Assembly: GCF_029960785.1 (NCBI RefSeq)
Contig: NZ_JASBQE010000028.1
Coordinates: 62,001 to 126,000 of the forward strand
Reading direction: 5' to 3'
Length of the DNA: 64,000 bases
From: Polyangium sp. 15x6
GTDB lineage: Bacteria; Myxococcota_A; Polyangia; Polyangiales; Polyangiaceae
The notes below the pieces were generated by a model. It was given only the letters and a program-made list of their open reading frames with translations, had not been told where the DNA came from and made no database searches. How positions within the stretch are numbered: the stretch's first letter is position 1; every line of letters begins with the position of its first letter. Of this stretch, positions 41,285-54,947 are shown piece after piece. The position numbers and the translations under genes are program-made.

Positions 41285-43369
41285 TCAGGCTTCTTTCCGT
41301 TCGCCGAGCAGCTCCAGCCGCGCGAGCGTCGCGCACGTCTCGCTGATCGCCCGCATGAGGCGCAGGCGATTCTCGCGGACGGGGATGTCGTCCGTCATGA
41401 CGTACACGTCGAGGAAGTAGCGGTGAAGCAGCGGCGCGAAGCTCGCGACCTCGCGCAGCGCGCCCGCGTAGTCGCCCGCGCGGCGCAGATCGACGAGCTT
41501 CGACGCGAGCGCGAGGTAGCCGTCGTGCACGGCCTTCTCGCTCGCGTGATCCTCGACCCGCGGCGGGGTCGGCTCGCCGGCCGGAGCGCCGCTCGCGATG
41601 TTCGTGGCGCGCTTGAAGACTTCCCCTACCCGCGCGCGCGTGTCCGCGTCGAGGCCCGCGAGCGCCGTCGCCCGCGCCCGCGCGTCGAGCGGCCGCTCGG
41701 CCGCGACGGGCAGCGCGGCCGCGACCGCGTCGCTCGGCAGCTTCGCTTCCAGCAGACCGCGCAGACGCTCGGTGAAGAAGTCGCCGAGCTTGTCCGTGAG
41801 CTCGCCCGGCCCGAGGTCGAGCGAGACGCCGCCGTAGCCGTCGTACGCCGCGCGGAACGCGTCCGAGATGCGCAGGTCGAAGCCTCGATCGAGCACGGTG
41901 CGCAGGATGCCGAGGCACGCGCGACGCAGGCCGTACGGATCGGCCGCGCCTGTCGGCGTGAGGCCGATGGCGAAGCAGCCGACGATCGTGTCGAGCCGAT
42001 CCGCGATCGACACGAGCGCGCCCGCGTCCGAGGGCGGCGTCGCTTCCTGCGCGCCCTTCGGCTGGTAATGCTCGCGGATCACGTCGGCGACCTCGGGGCT
42101 CGTGCCTTGCGCGAGCGCGTACGCGCGCCCCATCTCGCCTTCGAGCTCGGGGAACTCGCCGACCATGAGCGAGACGAGGTCACTCTTCGCGATGTGCGCG
42201 CCGCTCGCCGCGGCCATGATCGCAGGCTCCGGGAGCTGGAGCAGGAGGCCGAGCTCGCGCGCGAGCCGCTCGACGCGCTCGGCCTTGCCGAGCATGGTGC
42301 CGAGCCGCTTCTGGAACACGATGCCGGCGAGCTTCGTACGCCGATCGGCGAGGGGAATCTTGACGTCCTCGCGGTAGAAGAAGCGCGCGTCCGAGAGCCG
42401 CGCCCGCATGACGTTGTCGTTGCCGCGCCGGATGTTCGCGGGGTTCTCGGCCGTGTTCACGACCGAGAGGTATTTCGGCAGGAGCTTGCCGTCCTGCGCG
42501 CGCATGCCGAAGTAGCGCTGGTGGCCCTTGGCGACGGCGAGGATCACGCGCTCGGGCAGCTCGAGGAACTCGTCGCCGAAGCCGCCCACGATCACGTGCG
42601 GCTCCTCGACGAGCGAGAGGTTCTCCTCGATGAGGAAGTCGTCCTCGATGAGCGTGCCGCCCGCGGACGCGGCCGCCTCGAGGAGCCGCTCGCGCATCAC
42701 GCGCGCGCGCTCCTCGGGATCGACGAGCACGTGCGCGGCGCGGAGCGCGTCGACGTACATCGCGGCCGAGGTGATCGTGATCGCGCCCGGCGCGAGGAAG
42801 CGATGGCCGTAGGTGGTGCGGCCGCTCTTGGCGCCGGCGATCTCGACGTCGAGCAGGTCCTCGCCGAAGAGCGCGATGACCCAGTGGATCGGCCGGCCGA
42901 ACGCGTAATCGCCCGCGCCCCAGCGCATCGATTTGCGGAAGGGGATCGCGGTCGCGACCTGTGCGAGCGCCTCGGGCAGGAGCGCGGAGGCGAGCTTGCC
43001 GGCTTCGCGCCGCGTGCCGACGAGGTACTCGCCTTTCGGCGTCTCGACGCGGCGCAGATCGGCCACGGAGCCGCCGATCTTCGACGCGAACGCCTCGGCG
43101 GCCTTCGTGGGCACGCCGTCCTTGAACGCGGCTTTGACGGGCGGACCCGTGACCTCTTCTTCGAGATCGGGCTGGCGCTCGGCGACGCCGGAGACGAGTA
43201 CGGCGAGCCTTCGCGGCGTACCGAGCGCGCGGATCGCGCCGTGCGTGATGCGCAGATCCGAGAAGCGTTTCTTCAAAAGATCGGGGAGCGCGCGGAGCGC
43301 GGCGTCGACGAACGAAGCGGGCAGCTCCTCGCAGCCGATTTCGAGCAGGAGGTCGCGGGTCTGGGACAT
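41285..43369 (-). CDS. glyS: glycyl-tRNA synthetase beta subunit
   Basis: 694 residues, full length. MSQTRDLLLEIGCEELPASF opens the protein as in other GlyS, the middle keeps SLVEEPHVIVGGFG and LPERVILAVAKGHQRYFG, and a C-terminal anticodon-binding domain follows. The gene for the alpha subunit (glyQ), usually just upstream, is absent here; an accessory island begins 73 bases upstream. The first 33 coding bases and 26 bases before them recur at 50674-50732 as the beginning of another gene. Confidence 0.95.
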   Translation of the reverse strand: MSQTRDLLLEIGCEELPASFVDAALRALPDLLKKRFSDLRITHGAIRALGTPRRLAVLVSGVAERQPDLEEEVTGPPVKAAFKDGVPTKAAEAFASKIGGSVADLRRVETPKGEYLVGTRREAGKLASALLPEALAQVATAIPFRKSMRWGAGDYAFGRPIHWVIALFGEDLLDVEIAGAKSGRTTYGHRFLAPGAITITSAAMYVDALRAAHVLVDPEERARVMRERLLEAAASAGGTLIEDDFLIEENLSLVEEPHVIVGGFGDEFLELPERVILAVAKGHQRYFGMRAQDGKLLPKYLSVVNTAENPANIRRGNDNVMRARLSDARFFYREDVKIPLADRRTKLAGIVFQKRLGTMLGKAERVERLARELGLLLQLPEPAIMAAASGAHIAKSDLVSLMVGEFPELEGEMGRAYALAQGTSPEVADVIREHYQPKGAQEATPPSDAGALVSIADRLDTIVGCFAIGLTPTGAADPYGLRRACLGILRTVLDRGFDLRISDAFRAAYDGYGGVSLDLGPGELTDKLGDFFTERLRGLLEAKLPSDAVAAALPVAAERPLDARARATALAGLDADTRARVGEVFKRATNIASGAPAGEPTPPRVEDHASEKAVHDGYLALASKLVDLRRAGDYAGALREVASFAPLLHRYFLDVYVMTDDIPVRENRLRLMRAISETCATLARLELLGERKEA

Positions 43370-43394
43370 GGGGCGCGCAAGGTAGCGCAAACGG
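43336..43394. repeat. 59-bp exact repeat, original copy at glyS start
   Basis: This segment covers the glyS start codon, its first eleven codons and 25 upstream bases. It is identical to 50674-50732. Both lie in the same orientation, 7.3 kb apart, and bracket the HTTM operon and its neighbours. Confidence 0.9.
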
Positions 43395-44794: not shown

Positions 44795-45375
44795 GGGCAG
44801 GCGGAGAGGCGCGCCGTCAGGACATCGAGGGCGCTGGTACCCGATGCCTCTCCGACGGACGACCAACGGCCTCGCTCGCGAAGGAAACCAAAAACGTCGG
44901 CGTACGCCGCTCCCTTCACGGTATCGAGGCGAGGCGTGGATACGAGGACAGCGATGACTGGCGGGGACTCGCCTTTCGCCGCGCCCCTGGCATCGATCCA
45001 CCGGCCGAGCTGCTCGAAATCGCTGGGGCGGCTCAGGGAGCGGATGTCCCTCGTCAAGCTCGACAAGGCCCGTTGTTCGTCTGATGAAAGCTCGGGGAGA
45101 GCCATCAGGTCCGCCCGACCGGCGCGGACGCGGTAAATGAAACCGGGAGGAGCCTTCGTCGTCGTCGGAGCGACCTCTGTCGCGTTCCGAGCGCTGCAGT
45201 CCTGGATGAAGACGTAGACCTCCCGTTCGCCGCCGTCGGGCGCTGCGTACATGCCAAAGCCGCCGTAGCGCCAGGTCGAGAAGTGGTAATGGCGCGCGAG
45301 GAGGATGTGGACCGGGGGCCAGAGGACGAGGAGCGCGAGGATGGTCCAGGGGACGAGGGCGCGGATGCGGCGCAC
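44791..45375 (-). CDS. single-pass membrane partner of HTTM protein (copy A)
   Basis: 194 residues. One N-terminal membrane helix (LVPWTILALLVLWPPVHILL) is followed by a soluble domain with WRYGGFGMYAAPDGGEREVY. This layout, a helix then W-R..(F)GMYAAPD, parallels the partner at 48100-48771 (SWRLFAPDPGGTD). It starts with GTG four bases after the hydrolase stop and overlaps the HTTM gene downstream, so it is expressed with both. It is probably an SdpA/DUF5819-like accessory protein. Confidence 0.65.
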   Translation of the reverse strand: MRRIRALVPWTILALLVLWPPVHILLARHYHFSTWRYGGFGMYAAPDGGEREVYVFIQDCSARNATEVAPTTTKAPPGFIYRVRAGRADLMALPELSSDEQRALSSLTRDIRSLSRPSDFEQLGRWIDARGAAKGESPPVIAVLVSTPRLDTVKGAAYADVFGFLRERGRWSSVGEASGTSALDVLTARLSACP

Positions 45376-45419
45376 GGAGCTACCGGCGGCGGTCTTCGAC
45401 GAGGCCGCGGGAGACGGCG
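45294..45419. repeat. 126-bp repeat, copy 1 (hydrolase end/partner start)
   Basis: Spans the 3' end of the hydrolase and the 5' end of the partner gene. 49559-49685 repeats it with four substitutions and one inserted G. Confidence 0.85.
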
Positions 45420-46456
45420 TACTTGGCAAGCGTCTTGAACATGCGGTCATCCATGTCGACGAGCGCGTTCGTCAGCGCTACGAGCCCGACGCCAACGGTG
45501 GGCTCGAACGCGCAAAAGGCAGCGTACCCCATCGGAAGTCCACCATTGTGCCAAACGATTTCCCCGAGGGGCGAATCTGCCTTGATCGACCAGCCGAGTC
45601 CCTTTCCGCGTCGTCCGATACGGTGGAGACCGCCGACGCGGTGCGACTCACGCACCGTGGCACGCCGCAGCGGTCGCGCAGGATCAGGATCATCCCGTGG
45701 CGGCCAGGCTGCGAGCTGGAATGAGATCCAGCGGATGACGTCGCGGGTGGACGCGTAAAGACCACCGACAGGCGTGTATGCGGCATGCTCCCATAGTCTA
45801 TTGGGACCGAGCACCCCATCGCGGTTCTTGTGGGGTGTGGCGAGATGCTCACCAAGCACTTCGGGCGCGAATGTCGACGTCGTCATTCCGAGGGGATCGA
45901 GGATCCTCTCCTTGATGAAGGAGGCATAGGGCTGCCCGCTGCGACGCGCGACGACGATACCGAGAAGAGCAAAGCCGAGGTTGGAGTATTCATCATCGAC
46001 TCCCGGCGCGCGCGCCATCCTCACGGACGCGAGGTGCGCCAGCAGCTCGTCGTCATTGGGCTCGCGGTGAAGCTCGCCCCGCAAATCGCGGACGCCGCGG
46101 GGAAGGCCCGAGGTATGGGTGAGTAAATGACGCAGCGTAATTGGCGCGCTATCCTTCGTCGGATACCGAAGCGCGGCAGCTTCTGGGATGCTCTCGACCA
46201 GCGGCTCGTCGAGCTTGAGGATGCCATCGTCCCGGAGCGCCAGGATGGCTGCGGCTGTGAACGTTTTTGTTATTGAGCCGGTGCCGAATGGCGTGTCGAG
46301 GTCGACGGGTACCGATCTTTCTGCGTCAGCGTGGCCCCGCGCGTGATGCCAGAGGATCCCGTTTCGGCCGCAGATGGCGACGGCGAGCCCCGGCGCTTCG
46401 ACCTCACCGATAAGCTCGTGGAGTACTCGGTCTTTCGCGTCATCCGTGTCGAACAT
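45380..46456 (-). CDS. serine beta-lactamase-fold hydrolase (copy 1)
   Basis: 358 residues, class C beta-lactamase/DD-peptidase-like fold (beta-lactamase-related serine hydrolase). SxxK is SITKTFTA, YxN is YSNLGFALL, and the third motif is HNGG near the C-terminus, so the active site is complete. No signal peptide is visible, which suggests a cytoplasmic esterase or peptidase and not a drug-resistance enzyme. The start MFDTDDAKDR has AGGA upstream. It lies between the two HTTM modules, 14 bases after the coiled-coil gene and four before the partner. A paralogue sits at 49646-50707. Confidence 0.82.
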   Translation of the reverse strand: MFDTDDAKDRVLHELIGEVEAPGLAVAICGRNGILWHHARGHADAERSVPVDLDTPFGTGSITKTFTAAAILALRDDGILKLDEPLVESIPEAAALRYPTKDSAPITLRHLLTHTSGLPRGVRDLRGELHREPNDDELLAHLASVRMARAPGVDDEYSNLGFALLGIVVARRSGQPYASFIKERILDPLGMTTSTFAPEVLGEHLATPHKNRDGVLGPNRLWEHAAYTPVGGLYASTRDVIRWISFQLAAWPPRDDPDPARPLRRATVRESHRVGGLHRIGRRGKGLGWSIKADSPLGEIVWHNGGLPMGYAAFCAFEPTVGVGLVALTNALVDMDDRMFKTLAKYAVSRGLVEDRRR

Positions 46457-46470
46457 GCGGTCCTCTAGGT

Positions 46471-47145
46471 TCAGTGAGCGCTCGCGAGGACGTCGACGCG
46501 CACGCCATGCGTCGCGCCCCGCACCCAAGCACACGATGTGGGGCAGCGGTGGATATGCGTAGCGGCCCGTGGGTTATCAAAGTAAAACCCGCCCTCGGGG
46601 GAGCACGATGCGATAGCAGCAACTTCGGCGAGGTGGCGAATCTCGGCGTTCGATCCATCCGCAGCAAGCGCCGTCGTGCGCAGCGAAAACTTCGTGTGTG
46701 GCATCGCCTCGTTGGGCGGCGGAAGCTGGATCGGGTGCACGCATGGATCGGGCGCCACACCAGATGCCGGATCTCGGGTGCTGATCACCTCGATGTGCGC
46801 GAGCAGCATGGAGTGCGGACGCGGGGAACGCGAAGTCGACAACCCTGACTCCTCCTCGGCCTCTTCCCGTAGCTCCTCTTGCTCCTCTCGCGCCTCTTCC
46901 GCGCGCTGGGCCAACATGCCCACTTCGTCCTCCTCGTCGAGCCACCTCGCCGACAGCGGAGCGTCTTGCCGCGACCGCGGCGTTCCCTCGCCTGTGCTAC
47001 CGCTGTTCGTCTCGTGGGTCATCGCAACCCGCAGAGGCTCCTCGGGCATCGACGAGTAGGATCGCACGAGCGCGAGCGCGCAGAGAACGACGAGCGCTCC
47101 CGCCACGGCCGGCACAGCGTACGAAAATCTTGACAACGTACTCAT
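46471..47145 (-). CDS. single-pass membrane protein with coiled coil
   Basis: 224 residues. An N-terminal helix (YAVPAVAGALVVLCALALV) anchors it. A Glu/Arg coiled coil follows (AQRAEEAREEQEELREEAEE, about residues 75-95), then a Cys-containing C-terminal part. Its ATG overlaps the HTTM gene stop (ATGA). Not recognised; probably a periplasmic or outer-face component of the operon. Confidence 0.6.
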   Translation of the reverse strand: MSTLSRFSYAVPAVAGALVVLCALALVRSYSSMPEEPLRVAMTHETNSGSTGEGTPRSRQDAPLSARWLDEEDEVGMLAQRAEEAREEQEELREEAEEESGLSTSRSPRPHSMLLAHIEVISTRDPASGVAPDPCVHPIQLPPPNEAMPHTKFSLRTTALAADGSNAEIRHLAEVAAIASCSPEGGFYFDNPRAATHIHRCPTSCAWVRGATHGVRVDVLASAH

Positions 47146-48110
47146 CCCCCTGCTCCCGCGTTGGGTGGCTCGCCTTGGCGCCGGTCTCGATGCTGCATGC
47201 GCACGCTAAGCCAGCCGCGTAGCCGCTTCAACCCCCGGCCGATCCGCGCAAAATCCTCCTCCGGCACGAACAGCAAATCCGCGGCGATCATGAAAGCCGC
47301 GAACGTCACGAGCCCCATGAACATCGCGACGCCGAGGTGAAACCCGATCGCCATCACGAGCACCACTCTTCTGGCTCGCGCATGGAGCGCGACGCAGAAC
47401 GGAAACGCGATCTGAAACGCCACCGTCACGTACGACAGCGCCGTCACCACGAACGCGCTCGCGTAGACCTTCTCGCTCCATCCCGGCCACGCGAACTCGG
47501 CCTTGCGTAGCGCGAAGTAGATCGCCGTCCCATCGCGCCACGTCTCGCCCTGCACCTTCGTCGCTCCCGCAACCGCGTACACGAGGCAGACCTGCGCGAG
47601 CATCGCGAGGAGCGCGGTGTTGTGCACCATCGCGGTGCACTTCTGCAGGAGCGTGCAGGGCGCGCTTTCGGGCCGTCTTCGCGTATCAACCGACCACCGC
47701 CCGGAGACATCCGCGAAGCATGCGTACAGCATCAGGAGATGCGCGAGGTTGTCCCCTCCGTCGGCCAGCACGGGATTGCGCGCTGCGAGCGACCTCCAGA
47801 GCACGTACAGGATCGGCGTCACGAAGCGCGTCCGCCAACCGGCGACCCAGAGCAGAGCCAGCACGATACCCGCGTGATAGATGGCTTCGAACCAAACGTA
47901 GGAACGGCTCCACGCGAGGAGCGGAAACGCGCCGCCGAGGAGGTCTCGCGGATACACCCCATTCGGCCCGAACAGGAACCGTCGCTGTGCGTGGTTGACG
48001 AGGTACTGATAAAGGATCGTGCTCCCCGCGACGATACGAAACGCCGCAAGCCCAGCCAGACCATGGGGTCGTGAGAAGCGGTCGAGGAAGCCCTCGGGCT
48101 CAATAGCCAT
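47142..48110 (-). CDS. HTTM-domain membrane protein (copy B)
   Basis: 322 residues with about seven membrane segments. LAQVCLVYAVAGATKVQGET followed by WRDGTAIYFAL is the typical HTTM core (Y..AG..K..G..W..G.A). FRIVAGSTILYQYLVNHAQR opens the domain. It overlaps the partner upstream by 11 bases and the coiled-coil gene downstream by four. This is the better of the two HTTM matches. Similar pairs occur in actinobacteria and as SdpA-SdpB in Bacillus. Confidence 0.82.
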   Translation of the reverse strand: MAIEPEGFLDRFSRPHGLAGLAAFRIVAGSTILYQYLVNHAQRRFLFGPNGVYPRDLLGGAFPLLAWSRSYVWFEAIYHAGIVLALLWVAGWRTRFVTPILYVLWRSLAARNPVLADGGDNLAHLLMLYACFADVSGRWSVDTRRRPESAPCTLLQKCTAMVHNTALLAMLAQVCLVYAVAGATKVQGETWRDGTAIYFALRKAEFAWPGWSEKVYASAFVVTALSYVTVAFQIAFPFCVALHARARRVVLVMAIGFHLGVAMFMGLVTFAAFMIAADLLFVPEEDFARIGRGLKRLRGWLSVRMQHRDRRQGEPPNAGAGG

Positions 48111-48771
48111 CCACGACCTCGTACGGCGCCCAGGGCAGCTCCAGCGTGTACGTGTCTTCCTGCGTTGGCGCGCCCTCCCGCATCCCGAAGGGTGGCACCT
48201 TCCGCAAGACCAACTGCGCGCTCACCTGCGCCGTACGGCCCACACCGAAGCGCCGATCGCATGCAGCGGAGGCGATGCGGTTCGCGTGCGCGCGCCCGCT
48301 CTCGAACTGCCTGCGCGCTTCCGCAGCCAGCGCTTCGCGAGCGGCTTCGATCGTAGGGTTCGGTAACCCATAGCGGCGAATCGCCTCGTTCATCGGATCG
48401 GCGCGCAGAAGCAAGCGTGGCTCCTGCGCGCGGGCGAGGAGGAGCGCAGGCGAGAATCGACGCCGGTACCGGTGCTCGTGAAGGGGTGTCGTGATGTCGA
48501 ACCAGTCCGACTCGACCATCACGCTACCTTCGCGCACATTGCAGTTGACAAGCAGGAGCGAGTCGGTCCCGCCCGGATCGGGCGCGAAGAGGCGCCACGA
48601 CTGGTAGAAGTACGGATGCATGTACCGCATGAGCGGCGCATGCAGCGCGATCCGGATCGGATTCGGTGGGGTGAGATAGAGCAGCGTGCAGGCGAAATGA
48701 ACGCCGAGGAGGCCGAGCAAAAGAGCCGCGACGAGCGACAGAACGAAACGCTCCCCGCGGCTCCTCGTCAC
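48100..48771 (-). CDS. single-pass HTTM partner, DUF5819-like (copy B)
   Basis: 223 residues, GTG start six bases after the preceding stop. One membrane helix (LSLVAALLLGLLGVHFACTL) is followed by YMHPYFYQSWRLFAPDPGGT, the hallmark of DUF5819-type proteins that stand beside HTTM proteins. The rest is a soluble beta-rich domain. A piece of this gene recurs, internally deleted, at 52538-52671. Confidence 0.75.
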   Translation of the reverse strand: MTRSRGERFVLSLVAALLLGLLGVHFACTLLYLTPPNPIRIALHAPLMRYMHPYFYQSWRLFAPDPGGTDSLLLVNCNVREGSVMVESDWFDITTPLHEHRYRRRFSPALLLARAQEPRLLLRADPMNEAIRRYGLPNPTIEAAREALAAEARRQFESGRAHANRIASAACDRRFGVGRTAQVSAQLVLRKVPPFGMREGAPTQEDTYTLELPWAPYEVVDGY

Positions 48772-48776
48772 GGGCG

Positions 48777-48860
48777 TCAACCCTCGCCCGGCCCACCCTT
48801 CTTCTTCCGCGGCTTCGCGAAGCGGCTGAAATACGACTCCACCCGCGCCGCGTCGTGCGG
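48777..48860. repeat. 84-bp repeat, original copy
   Basis: The 3' end of the helical-protein gene; nearly identical (two substitutions) to 52000-52083. Confidence 0.85.
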
Positions 48861-49454
48861 GAACTTCTTCGTCAGCTCGGCGTGCAGCTTGATTCGCTCT
48901 TCCACCCAGCGGCGCTTCACCTCGGGGATCGTCTTTTCCTTCAGGAACGCGAGCTCCTCCTCGACCTTCGTGCACGCGGCGTCCGCCAATTCGACCGCCT
49001 CCACGGCGCCGAGCAGCTTGGCGAAATACTCCTCGTGGAGCGGCTTCATGCCGGGCTTGTTCTTGTCCTCGTCGAGGGCCTTGACGATGTCGCGCACCAT
49101 CTTGGGCTCGACCTCGCGCGCGTCGGCCTCCGTCACCGCGCGCAGGCCTTCGGCGAAATAACGACGATATCGCGGGTCGTCCCGATTCTTTTCGCACAGA
49201 TCGAGCAGGCGCAGCTCGAAGGAGCGGACGATCCGATCGACGACGCGGTCGCAGCAGGAGATCACGGCCTCGTGCTCCTCGACCGCCTCTTCCAGATCCT
49301 CTTGCTCGCGGTCCCTGGCCTTCAGCTCGACGTGCACCGCCGCGAAGGCGGCCTCCATTCCCTGCGTCTCGGCGTCCGCCCGGATGCCGGAGATCGTGAA
49401 GGCGCCGCTCTTGCGGTACTGTTTGGTGGGAGTGTCATCCCGGGGGTTGTCCAT
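48777..49454 (-). CDS. hypothetical helical protein, first gene of HTTM operon
   Basis: 225 residues, charged and helical throughout (LKARDREQEDLEEAVEEHEA; VEEELAFLKEKTIPEVKRRW), ending in a Lys-rich tail FAKPRKKKGGPGEG. No signal. AGG precedes the ATG. It lies five bases before the DUF5819-like gene. Not recognised. The last 84 bases of the gene are repeated at 52000-52083. Confidence 0.65.
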   Translation of the reverse strand: MDNPRDDTPTKQYRKSGAFTISGIRADAETQGMEAAFAAVHVELKARDREQEDLEEAVEEHEAVISCCDRVVDRIVRSFELRLLDLCEKNRDDPRYRRYFAEGLRAVTEADAREVEPKMVRDIVKALDEDKNKPGMKPLHEEYFAKLLGAVEAVELADAACTKVEEELAFLKEKTIPEVKRRWVEERIKLHAELTKKFPHDAARVESYFSRFAKPRKKKGGPGEG

Positions 49455-49526: not shown

Positions 49527-49640
49527 TCAGAGCCTGAGCAAGGTAACGGCTGCCGCCAGCGCGAGGAGGACGTGGACCGGCGGCCAGAGGACGAGGAGCG
49601 CGAGGATGGTCCAGGGGACGAGGGCGCGGACGCGGCGCAC
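49527..49640 (-). pseudogene. truncated HTTM partner, 37-residue membrane peptide
   Basis: Starts with GTG five bases after the second hydrolase, exactly as the full partner starts after the first. It keeps the helix ALVPWTILALLVLWPPVH, then diverges (VLLALAAAVTLLRL) and stops. It is the duplicated 5' end of the 194-residue partner gene, fused to unrelated sequence. It could still be translated as a tiny membrane peptide. Confidence 0.7.
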
Positions 49641-49685
49641 GGGAGCTACCGGCGGCGATCTTCGACGAGGCCGCGGGAGACGGCG
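49559..49685. repeat. 127-bp repeat, copy 2
   Basis: Second copy of 45294-45419, with four substitutions and one extra G next to the partner start. Confidence 0.85.
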
Positions 49686-50707
49686 AAAGCGTGGAGCAAT
49701 CTGACGAGGGATGCCTCCAGGCCAACGTCGGCATTGGCCAGTCCTACGATACCGACGCCGACGTTGGGCTCGAAGCCTGCGAACGAGGAGTATCCGATCG
49801 GGGATCCGCCGCTATGATGCACGACATGCCCCAGGCCTCCGCGTTCGATGGCCCATCCGAGGCCGCTACCATTGCGCCCAGCGCGTTGCAGTCCGCCGAT
49901 GCGGTGCGACTCGCGCACGGTCGATCGGCGAAGCGGCCTGGCAGGATCGAGATCGTCGCGAGGGGGCCACGCCGAAAGCTGATACTGAACCCAATGGACG
50001 AGCGCGCGCGCGGATGCGTAAAGGCCGCCGACGGGGACGTAGGCACCGTGTTTCCATAGCGCCTGTGGGAAAAAGCCGCCGTCGCGCATGTCATGTGGAG
50101 TCGCGTGAGTCGCGCTATGATTCTCGGGATCGAATGTCGCTTCTGTAATTCCCAGAGGGGCGAAGATCTGTTCCTCGACGTACGAGGTATAGGATTTTCC
50201 ACTCCGACGAGCGACGGCAATGCCGAGCAAAGCGTACCCGAGGTTCGAATAGGACCGCTCCTCATGCGGTGCGCGTTCCAGAGTCACGTTGGAGAGATGT
50301 TCCAACAGTTCGCGCTCATCTGGCTCGCGTCGGAGTACACCGCGTAAGTCTCGGATGCCCCGGGGAAGGCCGGAGGTATGTGTTAACAGGTGGCGTAGCG
50401 TGATCGGTGAGCAGTCCGTCGTGGGATAGCGAAGAGCCGACGCCTCCGGGACGCTCTCGTGCAGCGGTTCGTCTAGGGCAAGAAGCCCGGCGTCACGGAG
50501 CATGAGGATCGCAGTAGCCGTGAAGGTCTTCGTGATCGAGCAAGCGCTGAAGAGGGTATCCAGGTCTGCCGACGACCGAGCTTCGCGATCGGCATGACCG
50601 CGAGTGTGGTGCCAGAGGATCTCACGTCGGTCACAAACGGCGACGACGAGCCCGGGGGCCTCGATCTCGCTCACGATTTCGAGCAGGAGGTCGCGGGTCT
50701 GGGACAT
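49646..50707 (-). CDS. serine beta-lactamase-fold hydrolase (copy 2), glyS-derived start
   Basis: 353 residues, closely similar to copy 1 along its length (both end VSRGLVEDRRR). SxxK (SITKTFTA), YxN (YSNLGYALL) and HSGG are intact. The first eleven residues MSQTRDLLLEI are identical to the start of GlyS and come with 25 identical upstream bases; the similarity to copy 1 begins immediately after (SEIEAPGLVVAV versus GEVEAPGLAVAI). So the gene took its start region from glyS. Probably expressed, since the frame is open. Confidence 0.82.
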   Translation of the reverse strand: MSQTRDLLLEIVSEIEAPGLVVAVCDRREILWHHTRGHADREARSSADLDTLFSACSITKTFTATAILMLRDAGLLALDEPLHESVPEASALRYPTTDCSPITLRHLLTHTSGLPRGIRDLRGVLRREPDERELLEHLSNVTLERAPHEERSYSNLGYALLGIAVARRSGKSYTSYVEEQIFAPLGITEATFDPENHSATHATPHDMRDGGFFPQALWKHGAYVPVGGLYASARALVHWVQYQLSAWPPRDDLDPARPLRRSTVRESHRIGGLQRAGRNGSGLGWAIERGGLGHVVHHSGGSPIGYSSFAGFEPNVGVGIVGLANADVGLEASLVRLLHAFAVSRGLVEDRRR

Positions 50708-50732
50708 GGGGCGCGCAAGGTAGCGCAAACGG
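50674..50732. repeat. 59-bp exact repeat, second copy (hydrolase start)
   Basis: Identical to 43336-43394 at the glyS start, same orientation. It supplies the start codon and leader of the second hydrolase. Confidence 0.9.
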
Positions 50733-50799
50733 GGGGGTGTGGGAGGGGATCGAGGAGGGAGAAGGACGGGCAAGAGGTTGGCCGTGGGCACCTGTCGGC

Positions 50800-51948
50800 T
50801 CACGACTTGCGACGATTCAGCTCTTCCACGAGGTCGGGGGCCGGTTCCTTCCAGTCGGTGCGCATCAGGTGTCGCGTGAAGTCGAGGGCCACTTCCTCAG
50901 CGAGTCTGTCCAGGACTTCAGCCGGGATGGGGGCGCCTTCCTCGAGACCGGCGAAAGCCTTCGCCATGGCTCTGTCAGTAATGTCGTGGAGCAGTTGCTG
51001 GTTTTGTCGCTCCAGCCCAGTCTTGACGATAGCTGTTACAGCCTGGCGCGTTGATTCGATGACCTCGTCAGTTATGTAACGAGGCGGTGCCGCGAGGGCT
51101 CCAGACCAGGTGTCATGGTCCTGTTCCTCTCCGGTCATTGGATCCACGGCATACCCGAAGCGGCAGTCCGTGCAGGCTGCGCCCCTGATCTCGACGCCCA
51201 CTGATATGCCACCAAAAAAGCGAACCTCCGCCCGTACGTCTCGGGTTGACGAATCGCCATGAACCGTAATTGCATGGTACATTTTACCCAGGCGCTCGGA
51301 CGGGCTCCAAAGCGGCTGAGCCGGCGCCAAGCATGTATGAACGCCAGACTCGTCGCCGGATGCACCGGCGACGTAGCGCCAAGCACCTGCATCAAGGATC
51401 TGAGAATCGGTCACGCCACGCACAATGAGGAGCGATAGAATGCTCTTGACGCAACTCCGATAGAAATCCTCTCCTCCGATGGAGAAGTTGACGTTGACCA
51501 TATCGGAGAACGAACTCGTGGTCCATGCCTCATTTACTCGATAGTTTGCACCAGGGTTTTTGCGTCGTTGCGCTTCAACGAACCTGCGTGCCGCCGCCGG
51601 AGATGCTACTCGGTAGGTCTTGGACCCGTCTGCATTTTCACTGAGGAGTTGAGGCGCATGATCCATGGGTCGGGGTTTGCCGCCCGACTCCAAAATGAGA
51701 CCGCCAAGCTTGGGATCTTGCCCCCGTACGTTGGCCGCCTGGCCCCGGTCCCCTCTGATGTCGAGTAGCATACGAGCGAAGTCAAATGCCTTGATGAGCT
51801 CCGCGTCGATACCTCTACCGGATTCGCTGTTGCATTTCGTGCAGAGGATGCCCTTTACCTGGAGCGTTCCGCCAAGCGCGCTCGGGATTACGTGCTCCAA
51901 CGACATCGCATCTTGCTTCTTGCACAACTTGCAAATCGACATGGGCAC
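50800..51948 (-). CDS. HNH endonuclease-like protein
   Basis: 382 residues. The N-terminus has a compact HNH/zinc finger: ICKLCKK, then LEHVIPSALGG, then LCTKCNSESG (C-x2-C, E-H, C-x2-C). The rest, about 320 residues, is not recognised; it holds another Cys pair (GAACTDCRFG) at about 275. The codon use looks less GC-biased than that of its neighbours, consistent with recent transfer. Two Met starts lie two codons apart. It may be a mobile or defence-related nuclease. Confidence 0.7.
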   Translation of the reverse strand: MPMSICKLCKKQDAMSLEHVIPSALGGTLQVKGILCTKCNSESGRGIDAELIKAFDFARMLLDIRGDRGQAANVRGQDPKLGGLILESGGKPRPMDHAPQLLSENADGSKTYRVASPAAARRFVEAQRRKNPGANYRVNEAWTTSSFSDMVNVNFSIGGEDFYRSCVKSILSLLIVRGVTDSQILDAGAWRYVAGASGDESGVHTCLAPAQPLWSPSERLGKMYHAITVHGDSSTRDVRAEVRFFGGISVGVEIRGAACTDCRFGYAVDPMTGEEQDHDTWSGALAAPPRYITDEVIESTRQAVTAIVKTGLERQNQQLLHDITDRAMAKAFAGLEEGAPIPAEVLDRLAEEVALDFTRHLMRTDWKEPAPDLVEELNRRKS

Positions 51949-51999
51949 TGAACGTGGGCTTGCGACGCCCGCCTGTCAAGCGAGCATCCGTCACGGCTA

Positions 52000-52083
52000 T
52001 CAACCCTCGCCCGGACCACCCTTCTTCTTTCGCGGCTTCGCGAAGCGGCTGAAATACGACTCCACCCGCGCCGCGTCGTGCGG
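52000..52083 (-). pseudogene. fragment: 3' end of helical-protein gene
   Basis: 84 bases matching 48777-48860; in the minus direction they would encode the end of that protein (VESYFSRFAKPRKKKGG). Only the terminal 28 codons, stop included, are present. The rest of the 51949-52160 gap holds no gene I can see. Confidence 0.8.
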
Positions 52084-52160
52084 TCCTCGGGCTTCAGCTC
52101 AGTCATCCAGGTCTCCCCAGCGTGGCGGTTTCTCTTCGCGTCTCCGGCGCGGTGAAGCTC

Positions 52161-52511
52161 CTAGCCCGGGACCTCAACCAGCTTGAAGATGAGGTCGATC
52201 CCCGCGCCCTTGAACATGGATCTGGCATAGTCAAGGAAATCCTCGCCTTCGCGTGTGGTCGCATATTTGGCAAGAATGTATACCTTGATGGGTGTGGAAT
52301 GCTCCACTTCACGCCCGACGTCCTCGGCGAGGCGCTGGAACACCTCCCCACTCTCGATGAACGCGAGATACGTGTTCAGTTTTTCTTGCAGCAACAGAAG
52401 GTGTCGCCGTTCGTCTACCCAATCGAGATCGTCGATGACGGTGAGTCTTACATGACCTGTGCCCTTCTCGATCCCAAGCCAATCCACGACTCTGCTTTGT
52501 TCGATGGTCAT
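52161..52511 (-). CDS. DUF6572-like protein
   Basis: 116 residues. MTIEQSRVVDWLGIEKGTGH and LTVIDDLDWVDERRHLLLLQ are the opening of the small DUF6572 family as I know it, followed by EKLNTYLAFIESGEVFQR. The family has no known function and often sits in variable regions beside toxin or immunity genes. The frame runs on upstream through the chimeric fragment, but the ATG at 52511 matches the family start. Confidence 0.7.
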   Translation of the reverse strand: MTIEQSRVVDWLGIEKGTGHVRLTVIDDLDWVDERRHLLLLQEKLNTYLAFIESGEVFQRLAEDVGREVEHSTPIKVYILAKYATTREGEDFLDYARSMFKGAGIDLIFKLVEVPG

Positions 52512-52537
52512 GGTCGCCTCACTTCCAGTTTGGTCCG

Positions 52538-52671
52538 GCGCGAAGAGGCGCCACGACTGGTAAAATACGGGTGCAAAAGAGCCGCGACGAGCGACAGAAC
52601 GAAACGCTCCCCGCGGCTCCTCGTCATGGGCATCAACCCTCGCCTGGCCCACCATTCTTCTTCCGCGGCTC
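52538..52671 (-). pseudogene. chimeric remnant of DUF5819-like gene and its upstream neighbour
   Basis: 52538-52575 matches 48581-48620 (coding FYQSWRLFAPD), and 52576-52671 matches 48719-48814, the start of the DUF5819-like gene and the end of the helical-protein gene. About 98 bases between them are deleted. This is a decayed copy of the operon junction. Confidence 0.75.
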
Positions 52672-52752
52672 TTCATGGGCCTTTTCGATCATCGCAGGCT
52701 ACGTCCGCTCAGTACGCTCTGCAAGCCGCCTCACGATCCACGCGACACGGAA

Positions 52753-52920
52753 CGCGCCAAGGGCGTTCGGACGCCGCCCTGTCGTGCCGGGACGCGCACC
52801 GAAGGCCCTTGGCGCGGTCCGCGTCATGCAGCGGCGTGCACCGAAGGCCCTTGGTGCAGTCCGCGTCATGCAAGGAACGCGCACGAACGGGCTTCGGTGC
52901 ACGTCCCTGCATGCAGCGAT
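52753..52920. repeat. 42-43-bp degenerate tandem repeat with an inverted unit
   Basis: Units begin GCAC at 52796, 52838 and 52881 (period 42-43; core CCGAAGGCCCTTGG, then TCCGCGTCATGCA). Just upstream CGCGCCAAGGGCGTTCGG (52753-52770) is the inverted form of 52799-52816 with one mismatch in 18, so a hairpin with a 28-base loop can form. The gap 52512-53034 holds this, the chimeric remnant and no other gene. Confidence 0.7.
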
Positions 52921-53034
52921 CGACCCGGAAGGCGGTTCGTGTCGCTCCCCGCCTGCAGAGGAAGCATCCAAACACCCGAAGTGCACGGCGTAGCATGCCT
53001 TGACACCCCCGGATCGCGTTCGCAGCGTTCCCCG

Positions 53035-53868
53035 GTGCGCTCCCGCCTCTCCCTCCTCCTCGCGCTGCTGGCCACGGCCTGCCATTCGGCATCGGCTCCC
53101 ATTCCCGCCAACCCGGAACCTCCGCCCGCCGTCTGCCCATCCCTTTCGAAAAACCCCGAGCGCATCGCCGTCCCGGAGCCCATTCCCGGCGAGGTACACG
53201 AGGTCTTCGATCTCCCGGACGAGCCTGTCCTCTGGGCGCCCGCCCCGCGCGACCCGGAGCGCGACCAGTATCATGCGGCCCTCCTGGCCAAGGTCGGCAG
53301 CGAGGCGGGGCTCTCGCAACGCGCCTTGCTCGAACGCGCGCGCCAGGTGATGACCGGCACCTCGGGATACCGCGAGATCGACAACGTCAACGTCATCCTC
53401 GACGGCAAAGCGGGCTCCGTGAGCCCCATCGATTGCCTGGAATGGCGCCTCTTCCAGCGCCAGGCGCGCAGGTATCCCATGGTCGAACATCCCACCGAGT
53501 TCGGCGCGTACATTCTCCGGGGCAATGGCCGCGTCCGGGTCTACTTTTCGGGAGCGGATCGGGTCGGCGGCAAGTTACGCGGCGAGGTCAAGGAGCGCGT
53601 CCTCGCGGACCTCGGCCGCGGCTTTCAGCCCGTCGCGCATTTGCACAACCACCCTTTCCTGTTCGACCGCATTCCCGGCGATCGCATGTGGACGACCGAG
53701 GAGACGAAGAACAACTACGAGGGCGGCGTCGCCCCGAGCCTCACGGACGTGCAAGCGTACCGCGCGATGCGCGAGCATTTCGGATTGCAGGGGGCGTGGG
53801 TGACGAATGGGCTCGATACGGCCCATTTCACGGGCGCGGAGTTCGACGTGCTCTCCGCGCGGGAATGA
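53035..53868 (+). CDS. lipoprotein with JAMM/JAB-like metalloprotease motif
   Basis: 277 residues from a GTG start giving a signal LSLLLALLATAC. The C-terminal domain contains HLHNHPF followed by GGVAPSLTDVQAYR, matching the JAMM pattern H-x-H-P..PS..D; a candidate Glu lies upstream in VEHPTEFGAYI. JAMM enzymes cut isopeptide or peptide bonds or deconjugate ubiquitin-like proteins. A secreted, lipid-anchored form is unusual. The last 98 bases recur at 54739-54836. It converges with the ankyrin gene (seven bases between stops). Confidence 0.65.
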   Translation: MRSRLSLLLALLATACHSASAPIPANPEPPPAVCPSLSKNPERIAVPEPIPGEVHEVFDLPDEPVLWAPAPRDPERDQYHAALLAKVGSEAGLSQRALLERARQVMTGTSGYREIDNVNVILDGKAGSVSPIDCLEWRLFQRQARRYPMVEHPTEFGAYILRGNGRVRVYFSGADRVGGKLRGEVKERVLADLGRGFQPVAHLHNHPFLFDRIPGDRMWTTEETKNNYEGGVAPSLTDVQAYRAMREHFGLQGAWVTNGLDTAHFTGAEFDVLSARE

Positions 53869-53875
53869 CGGCCCC

Positions 53876-54553
53876 TCACGGCACCGCGGCGCCGTGGCGA
53901 CGCAGAAGCTCGACCCCGTCGAGGCACCCTGCTTTCGAGGCGATGTGCAGCAGGGAATCATAGCCGGCGGGCGGCTCGATGTCGGCGCCGAACGCAGCGA
54001 GCAGGAGGTCGAGGACGGCGAGTTCTTTTTTGCCTTTTCGCGTGACGAATTCGGCCGTCAGGAAGAAGCAGGCCTCATGCGCGGGCGGCTGGGCGAGGAG
54101 CGCCTTGACCGCCTGGGTGCGGCCGAGCTCACAGGCGACCTGGAGCGGCGTGAAACACGTGGGGGGGCTTTCGCGGACGGTGTTCGGGTTGGCCCCGGCG
54201 TCGAGGAGCGCCTTGATGACGGGCGGCCCCGCGTTCGCCGCGGCGAGGTGGAGCGGCGTGCCGCTCGGCGAGGGGAGGTTCACGTCGCCGCCCGCGCGTA
54301 GGAGCGTGCGGACCGTTTTCGCGTCCCGGACGAGGTGGAGCCCGGCCAAACCATCGACGCGGGTCTCGTTGGCCGAAGAGCCTCGCGAGAGGAGCAGATC
54401 GAGCGACCGGTGGGCCTTCGCCAACACCGCCATCGGCACGAGGGGCGGGCTATCGAGAGGAGCGGCCGCGAGGAGCGCGGCGAGGGCGCTCGTATCATCA
54501 TGACGAAGGGCGGTGGCGAGGGCCTGGGCGAAGCCGGCGGGCGTGATCGTCAT
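53876..54553 (-). CDS. ankyrin-repeat protein
   Basis: 225 residues with four to five ankyrin repeats (SGTPLHLAAANAGPPVIKAL, then LDAGANPNTV; FTPLQVACELGRTQAVKALL; LLHIASKAGCLDGVELLRRH). No signal peptide. It is a protein-binding module, function unknown. Its ATG overlaps the stop of an open frame that looks like a methyltransferase remnant (ATGA). Confidence 0.82.
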   Translation of the reverse strand: MTITPAGFAQALATALRHDDTSALAALLAAAPLDSPPLVPMAVLAKAHRSLDLLLSRGSSANETRVDGLAGLHLVRDAKTVRTLLRAGGDVNLPSPSGTPLHLAAANAGPPVIKALLDAGANPNTVRESPPTCFTPLQVACELGRTQAVKALLAQPPAHEACFFLTAEFVTRKGKKELAVLDLLLAAFGADIEPPAGYDSLLHIASKAGCLDGVELLRRHGAAVP

Positions 54554-54738
54554 GACGTCACCGAACCATCGGTGGCCCCGGGCGTCAACGATGCATTCGT
54601 GCGAACGGCGATCGCAGAATTGCGCTCCCGTCGTCCCTGCGCACAGTCCATCACAGCTTGGCGCTGCTCGTCGGTGGGGCTTTCAGGCCAAACGAAGTTG
54701 TCATGCACCAGGGTATTCGAGTAGCTGACGTCTGACTT
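54550..54738 (-). pseudogene. remnant of a DNA methyltransferase C-terminus
   Basis: Open frame of 62 codons plus stop with no start at its head. SYSNTLVHDNFVWPESPTDE followed by QRQAVMDCAQGRRER matches by eye the C-terminal text of class I DNA methyltransferases of restriction or BREX-type systems (NNFPWPENPT..Q..AI..AAQ..LDAR). After about 35 codons the similarity stops. The left part has no start; the sequence switches abruptly to the JAMM-gene fragment at 54739. Confidence 0.55.
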
Positions 54739-54836
54739 GCGAGCATTTCGGATTGCAGGGGGTGTGGGTGACGAATGGGCTCGATACGGCCCATTTCACG
54801 GGCGCGGAGTTCGAAGTGCTCGCCGCGAGAGAATGA
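54739..54836 (+). pseudogene. fragment: 3' end of JAMM-like lipoprotein gene
   Basis: Matches 53771-53868 with five substitutions, in frame to the stop. The changes are conservative (A to V, D to E, S to A), as if from a diverged paralogue. Nothing of the rest of the gene is present. Between it and the tRNA (54837-54947) I see no gene. Confidence 0.75.
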
Positions 54837-54947
54837 CGGCCTCTCCGACGGGGTTCCACAGGACCCTCGAAGGCAGGAGCAGAGCGAACGTCAAGGGCGG
54901 CCAGCTCGTCATGGTGGGCTTCTCGTGGTACTGTGCTCGAGCCCTGT

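Follow-up and report, generated by a model that had tools for sequence, protein, structure and literature searches.

A chimeric hydrolase gene with a glyS start in a variable interval of a Polyangium genome

The locus and its chimeric gene

The window analysed here is a stretch of 64,000 nucleotides from the genome of Polyangium sp. 15x6. Within it, the interval between glyS (identified by TIGR00211, 2.8e-207) and the gene after 59429, which we take to be dapB from its sequence, harbors the genes and gene fragments listed in Table 1. This interval (the hotspot) is variable in all five of the congeners that were compared (G001 to G005). The backbone pieces shared with them are glyS with the adjoining gene G, gene A, and the 52675-53868 gene and/or the ankyrin gene, though not all of these in all five genomes; between the pieces lie differing blocks, and the backbone resumes from approximately 58156 or 59430 in the congener comparison. 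G002 carries a remnant of the start of gene B at the same place, such that at least B was once present there too.

Table 1. Features of the locus, with positions in the window
Feature	Position	Strand	Remarks
Resident glyS start	43336..43394	-	59 bases same as at H2; ATG begins at 43369
H1, paralogous hydrolase	45380..46456	-	PF00144, 1.8e-65; own start
Gene A	48777..49454	-	Full length in G001, G002, G003 and G005; fragment only in G004
Second border of H2 (40 terminal bases of H2 and ~27 initial codons of gene E)	49559..49685	-	97% to 45294-45419
H2, chimeric PF00144-fold hydrolase gene	49646..50707	-	ATG at 50707; codons 1-11 derive from a glyS start
Flank past the 59 bases at H2	50733..50749	-	Like the G004 glyS upstream sequence, unlike own glyS
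HNH_5-domain gene just upstream of H2	50800..51948	-	PF14279, 1.1e-12
Fragment: 3' end of A and first bases of B	51989..52083	-	95% to 48766-48860
Fragment: internal B piece beside B start and A end	52534..52670	-	
Fragment: 3' end of the 52675-53868 gene, beyond the ankyrin gene	54739..54845	+	94% to 53771-53877

The gene at the center of this study, H2, is an uninterrupted frame of 353 codons. Its translation opens with MSQTRDLLLEI; the remainder is that of a PF00144 hydrolase and aligns with H1, to which H2 is 63% identical. The match to PF00144 (4.8e-63; 213.8 bits against a cut-off of 27) spans residues 16-330 and thus most of the domain. This confirms the initial annotation, which had described a hydrolase with a GlyS-like beginning as a paralogue of the gene at 45380-46456. 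By eye, the translation of this putative hydrolase holds SITK, YSN and HSGG, which correspond to the SxxK, YxN and HxG-type motifs of PF00144 serine hydrolases. As a class C beta-lactamase (NCBIfam), H2 scores 86 bits, which is below the curated cut-off of 415. H1 lies 14 bases behind gene D and has an AGAGGA Shine-Dalgarno-like box.

In 183 genomes of the order (own genome included; E <= 1e-55), the best match to H2 elsewhere than in the own genome has 44% identity, and an unfused H2 was not found; a scan of genome contigs for the unfused form, which reaches close relatives only, returned one locus at 27%. In a search of eight genomes, neither the HNH_5 gene (E <= 1e-10) nor the SDR gene (E <= 1e-50) had relatives outside the own genome. 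H2 is a real chimeric gene, in which the start and the first 11 codons of a glyS allele are joined to the body of a divergent H-family hydrolase.

With respect to the other genes of the interval, the HTTM gene C, which lies behind a DUF5819 gene (the pair at 47142-48110 and 48100-48774), resembles the SdpB family TIGR04033 (1.6e-26), though its 93.5 bits are below the cut-off of 178.4; the two genes are possibly an SDP-like toxin-maturation pair. Gene D had no family match. Defence-system models run on ten proteins of the hotspot gave no match besides the ankyrin gene (PDC-M72A, 2.6e-11; 'Ankyrin', 9e-05), and this match was taken to reflect shared ankyrin repeats.

The copied glyS start and its flanks

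The stretches 43336-43394 and 50674-50732 are identical in all 59 bases, as was initially claimed and as a self-comparison of the window and an exact check now bear out. Under a simple base-frequency model, the expected number of such 59-mer pairs in 64 kb is approximately 1e-24. With the weaker likeness around the repeat included, the similarity extends to 85 bases (89%). The repeat had been said to hold the start codon, eleven codons and 25 upstream bases. The 25 bases upstream of the ATG are as described, but the 34 coding bases make up eleven codons only when the ATG is counted among them, and one further base. At E <= 0.001, the glyS start has two matches in the own genome and one in each of the five congeners. 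The exact identity, together with the intact frame of H2, supports the view that recombination fused the start of glyS in frame to an accessory hydrolase.

The fusion had furthermore been called recent, and this part of the claim is not supported. The 59 bases are unchanged in the glyS of three of the five congeners (G002, G003 and G004), and they differ at one upstream base in G005 and at three bases in G001, one of them upstream and two coding. Since the glyS genes of congeners carry the same bases, identity within the window tells little about the age of the event, and an old event could look alike; we have therefore dropped it as proof of recency.

The sequence past the 59 bases bears on the question of which glyS the copy came from. 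Over 83-85 bases, the copy at H2 is 95.2% identical to the glyS start of G004 (three mismatches and one gap), whereas it is 89.4% identical to the own glyS and does not exceed 90.6% with any of the remaining four congeners (7-9 mismatches). The own glyS start, over the same length, is 98.8% identical to those of G003 and G002 (one mismatch each), followed by G005 (97.6%, two mismatches), G004 (92.9%, six mismatches) and G001 (90.5%, eight mismatches). With a G004-like flank at H2 and a G003/G002-like flank at the own glyS, the copy at H2 thus bears another glyS upstream haplotype than the resident gene, a difference that rests on approximately 17 G-rich flank bases and for this reason is not strong. 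Given this mismatch in the flank, we no longer consider the H2 start a plain present-day copy of the own glyS, and the original proposal of a capture from the glyS at 43336 in its current form is not supported.

The glyS coding sequence (96.5%, support 98) and a backbone stretch of 7.2 kb (93.1%, support 100) both place the genome of the window as the sister of G004. A candidate change of ancestry at the anchor is seen over the flank bases mentioned above, whereas the tree of gene G, which was consulted to decide between a replacement in the own genome and one in G004, has a support of 45 and shows G004 on a long branch (0.43). The own copy of gene G is 69.0% identical to that of G004, as compared to 80-82% for G002, G003 and G005 and 75% for G001. 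Since gene G is thus odd in G004, it may be G004, and not the genome of the window, in which a replacement took place.

Copied gene edges across the interval

The glyS start is one of five copied gene edges in the interval, which lie at 50666 (the glyS start), 49559, 51989, 52573 and 54739. Of these, the initial annotation described the glyS start only. The edge at 49559 forms the second border of H2. Here, the H2/E border matches the H1/E border with 122 identities, four mismatches and one gap, the short intergenic gap included, and from this 97% the identity drops abruptly to approximately 65% (in 40-base steps) in the body of H2 and H1. With the copy of a glyS start at one end and a 97% copy of the H1 end at the other, H2 has a copied gene edge at either border. 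In the composite fragment at 52534, the internal B piece is 91% identical to 48578-48620, and the B start with the A end, from 52573, is 96% identical to 48717-48814. All of the gene-edge repeats are direct. For the fragments at 51989, 52573 and 54739, the copies in the own genome are the nearest (94-96%), ahead of those in the congeners over comparable lengths. When the region is divided into units, a division that is our own and was made after the data were seen, each of the four joins restarts to the left of the end of the previous unit, which fits a head-to-tail joining of partial versions of one interval.

For comparison, repeat pairs were counted in 20-kb tiles by a rule that was kept constant (length 40-200 bp, identity of 85% or higher, more than 300 bp apart, same strand), whereby the E/H border was left out of the count because it merges into a longer match. 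The hotspot tile holds six pairs, one of which is between two fragments already counted, and the hotspot stretches of the congeners hold one pair each (G003 and G005) or none (G001, G002 and G004). Among 82 control tiles (40 from the own genome, 40 from G005 and two of the window), 26 pairs were found in 11 tiles; 17 of them were inside coding repeats and nine were not, the latter amounting to at most three per tile. The two highest control tiles held eight and five pairs, all inside coding repeats. Since one control tile thus surpasses the hotspot, we do not use repeat density alone as an argument.

Other repeats were seen as well. A 42-bp tandem unit is present at 52781-52864, with similar repeats in the hotspot stretches of G005 and G003, and dispersed repeats of 120-160 bp in L132 (10150-16766) and L084 (5976-8238) are seemingly intergenic and palindrome-rich (REP-like by eye).

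Origin and possible significance of the fusion

Our best reading of the locus is that short-junction recombination in the variable glyS-dapB interval, be it an insertion or a duplication followed by deletion, gave rise to the chimeric gene with a promoter that is probably its own. The analysis shows the fusion itself, its intact frame, the edge fragments, the mismatch of the flanks and a similar shared start in congeners, whereas the direction and order of the events, the activity of the promoter and the function of H2 are matters that we infer. For the event itself, we prefer a one-sided insertion of related-strain DNA at the glyS start, and give this reading an about even chance of being correct. 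DNA of a related strain containing this interval would have been added at the glyS start, with homology joining one of its ends and a short illegitimate junction the other (in a one-sided, HFIR-like manner, or through the single crossover of a circle, which would leave the same trace as HFIR). One copy of the start would have stayed on glyS, and the other would have landed on the hydrolase body along with the flank of another haplotype. Repeated additions of this kind could have left the head-to-tail gene-edge fragments over 49559-54845. With an insertion, a single event suffices to account for the difference between the flanks. The homologous anchor is doubled at the insertion edge, in the form of the repeat of 59-85 bases, but a duplication would leave the same sign. 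Furthermore, the adjacent part to the right lacks gene G, such that the insertion would require at least one further deletion. The failure to find an unfused H2 in the genomes searched, the scarcity of repeat pairs in the hotspots of the congeners and the rarity of HFIR in the papers cited below also weigh against it.

The proximity of three fragments (51989, 52573 and 54739) to the own genome's copies, which are closer than those of the congeners, speaks against the insertion and fits a local duplication. A short-junction tandem duplication within one genome could have doubled a segment from inside H2 to codon 11 of glyS, creating a glyS'-H2 fusion beside the intact glyS; subsequently, most of the second copy would have been deleted, and the flank of one copy would have changed. 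The direct and local nature of the repeats agrees with this, and such a duplication has the closest experimental precedent in nusG'-sigH, which in the excerpted text of PMC3486894 has the same geometry, i.e., an intact downstream gene that is kept and an in-frame fusion, placed a number of codons into that gene, that uses its promoter and start. However, a complete tandem copy with identical flanks was not found at H2: the flanks differ, where a duplication should have given both copies the same glyS-upstream sequence, and the self-comparison of the window revealed no second G or rest of the unit beside the H2 start. The bases ATCG, which glyS, H2 and H1 have in common at the join, are a candidate for a junction repeat. 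We therefore regard the tandem duplication as possible, but rather unlikely. It is improbable that H2 was fused in another, G004-like strain and arrived later as a finished gene with its borders. Such an import would agree with the G004-like flank and with the fact that none of the five congeners yielded a close relative of H2, the HNH gene or the SDR gene at the thresholds applied, but no such gene turned up elsewhere among the 183 genomes of the order that were searched, the own one included, and the fusion event would merely be shifted elsewhere. As the genome is a draft of 275 contigs, one might also suspect that a short repeat wrongly joined two places in the assembly. This we consider extremely unlikely, because the two copies differ in their flanks, contig C193 (128,877 bp) continues past both of them, and G005, with a main contig of 13.2 Mb, has a comparable shared start at this locus; moreover, the reading frame is kept across the fusion and the hydrolase has its full length.

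The locus can be compared to several known systems, of which the nusG'-sigH fusions are a close precedent. According to the excerpted text of PMC3486894, the nusG'-sigH and rplK'-sigH chimeras of Staphylococcus aureus arose by short-junction tandem duplication, with copies of 1210 and 1888 bp and junction repeats of 8 and 7 bp; they stem from laboratory selection and are reversible. H2 is like them in that the promoter, start and first codons of a housekeeping gene are fused in frame while the original is kept. Unlike nusG'-sigH with its complete tandem copies, it lies in a natural mosaic locus with edge fragments only and with the flank of another haplotype. In the T6SS clusters of Vibrio cholerae, for which the portion of PMC5361080 drawn on here proposes a mechanism akin to HFIR, effector-immunity modules are stacked. 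Each incoming module would be anchored there through a single conserved edge, with older modules being displaced, which resembles the situation proposed for H2. In contrast to these modules, the repeated edge here includes the start of a housekeeping gene, and the family searches run at the locus named no secretion-system gene. HFIR is described as rare in the same portion of PMC5361080, and true HFIR likewise in that of PMC3240628. The latter reports, for the integration of a plasmid at lacZ during E. coli conjugation, that the target was partially duplicated in most of the recombinants (109-950 bp, 14 sequenced clones), which its authors ascribe to single crossovers of the circular plasmid. 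The partial duplication of a homologous target is similar to our case, whereas the setting is a laboratory assay. Finally, wrinkly spreaders of Pseudomonas fluorescens carry promoter-capture fusions, in frame with a gene nearby, and transcription rose strongly in two of the three, but, in the excerpts of PMC4395868, these were formed by deletion, unlike the duplication or insertion considered here. Under either mechanism, the kind of event is already known; the interest of H2 lies in the fact that such an event took place in nature, and probably repeatedly at a single locus.

With respect to expression, the starts of glyS and H2 have a -10-like TACCTT with a gap of 9 nt to the ATG, located in a conserved upstream block. 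Gene A has TACTCT with a gap of 6 nt, and the glyS genes of two other genera have TAGCTT and TAGCGT, 8 and 10 nt ahead of the ATG. In ORFs picked for high GC3, and with a range that was set after the peak was seen, TANNNT occurs 6-10 nt ahead of 12 of 179 first ATGs as opposed to 7 of 1404 internal ATGs, an enrichment that points to a class of leaderless starts in the genus. A scan with the sigma-70 consensus found no promoter at the H2 start. Judging from these motifs, the 59-base piece plausibly carries the expression signals of glyS, and what was copied is probably a compact leaderless promoter-start module, such that H2 can probably be transcribed from its own promoter, independently of a gene order like that around H1. 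The locus suggests that leaderless starts facilitate such fusions. One may go further and regard the leaderless modules of glyS and gene A in this genus as portable 'start cassettes', where promoter, start and first codons lie within approximately 60-130 bp and any gene joined in frame just inside would be expressed at once; the hotspot beside glyS would then keep yielding chimeric accessory genes with borrowed N-termini. We find this extension doubtful.

H2 provides a natural example of a newly placed gene that possibly gained expression via promoter and start codon sequences taken from a neighbouring housekeeping gene. The takeover of another gene's start is a recognised route to a new 'on switch', and it has occurred here at a spot that is prone to rearrangement. 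The locus offers a set of species in which start takeover can be examined directly.

A similar case is found at the start of gene A in G003 and G005. There, 26 codons are common to A and a gene that we labelled lipoprotein-like by eye, once in G005 and twice in G003, and the shared stretch extends upstream over 51 bases in G005 and over 15 and approximately 600 bases in the two G003 copies. The lipoprotein-like translations open with MDDPRED..., as compared to MDNPRED... in A, and then diverge from A. We infer that A was the donor, because it is more widely present, G001, G002 and the window included. If so, the locus would have seen start capture a second time. In G003, the two copies of the lipoprotein-like gene (L047, 3034-3801 and 4679-5446) are 95% identical over 768 bp.
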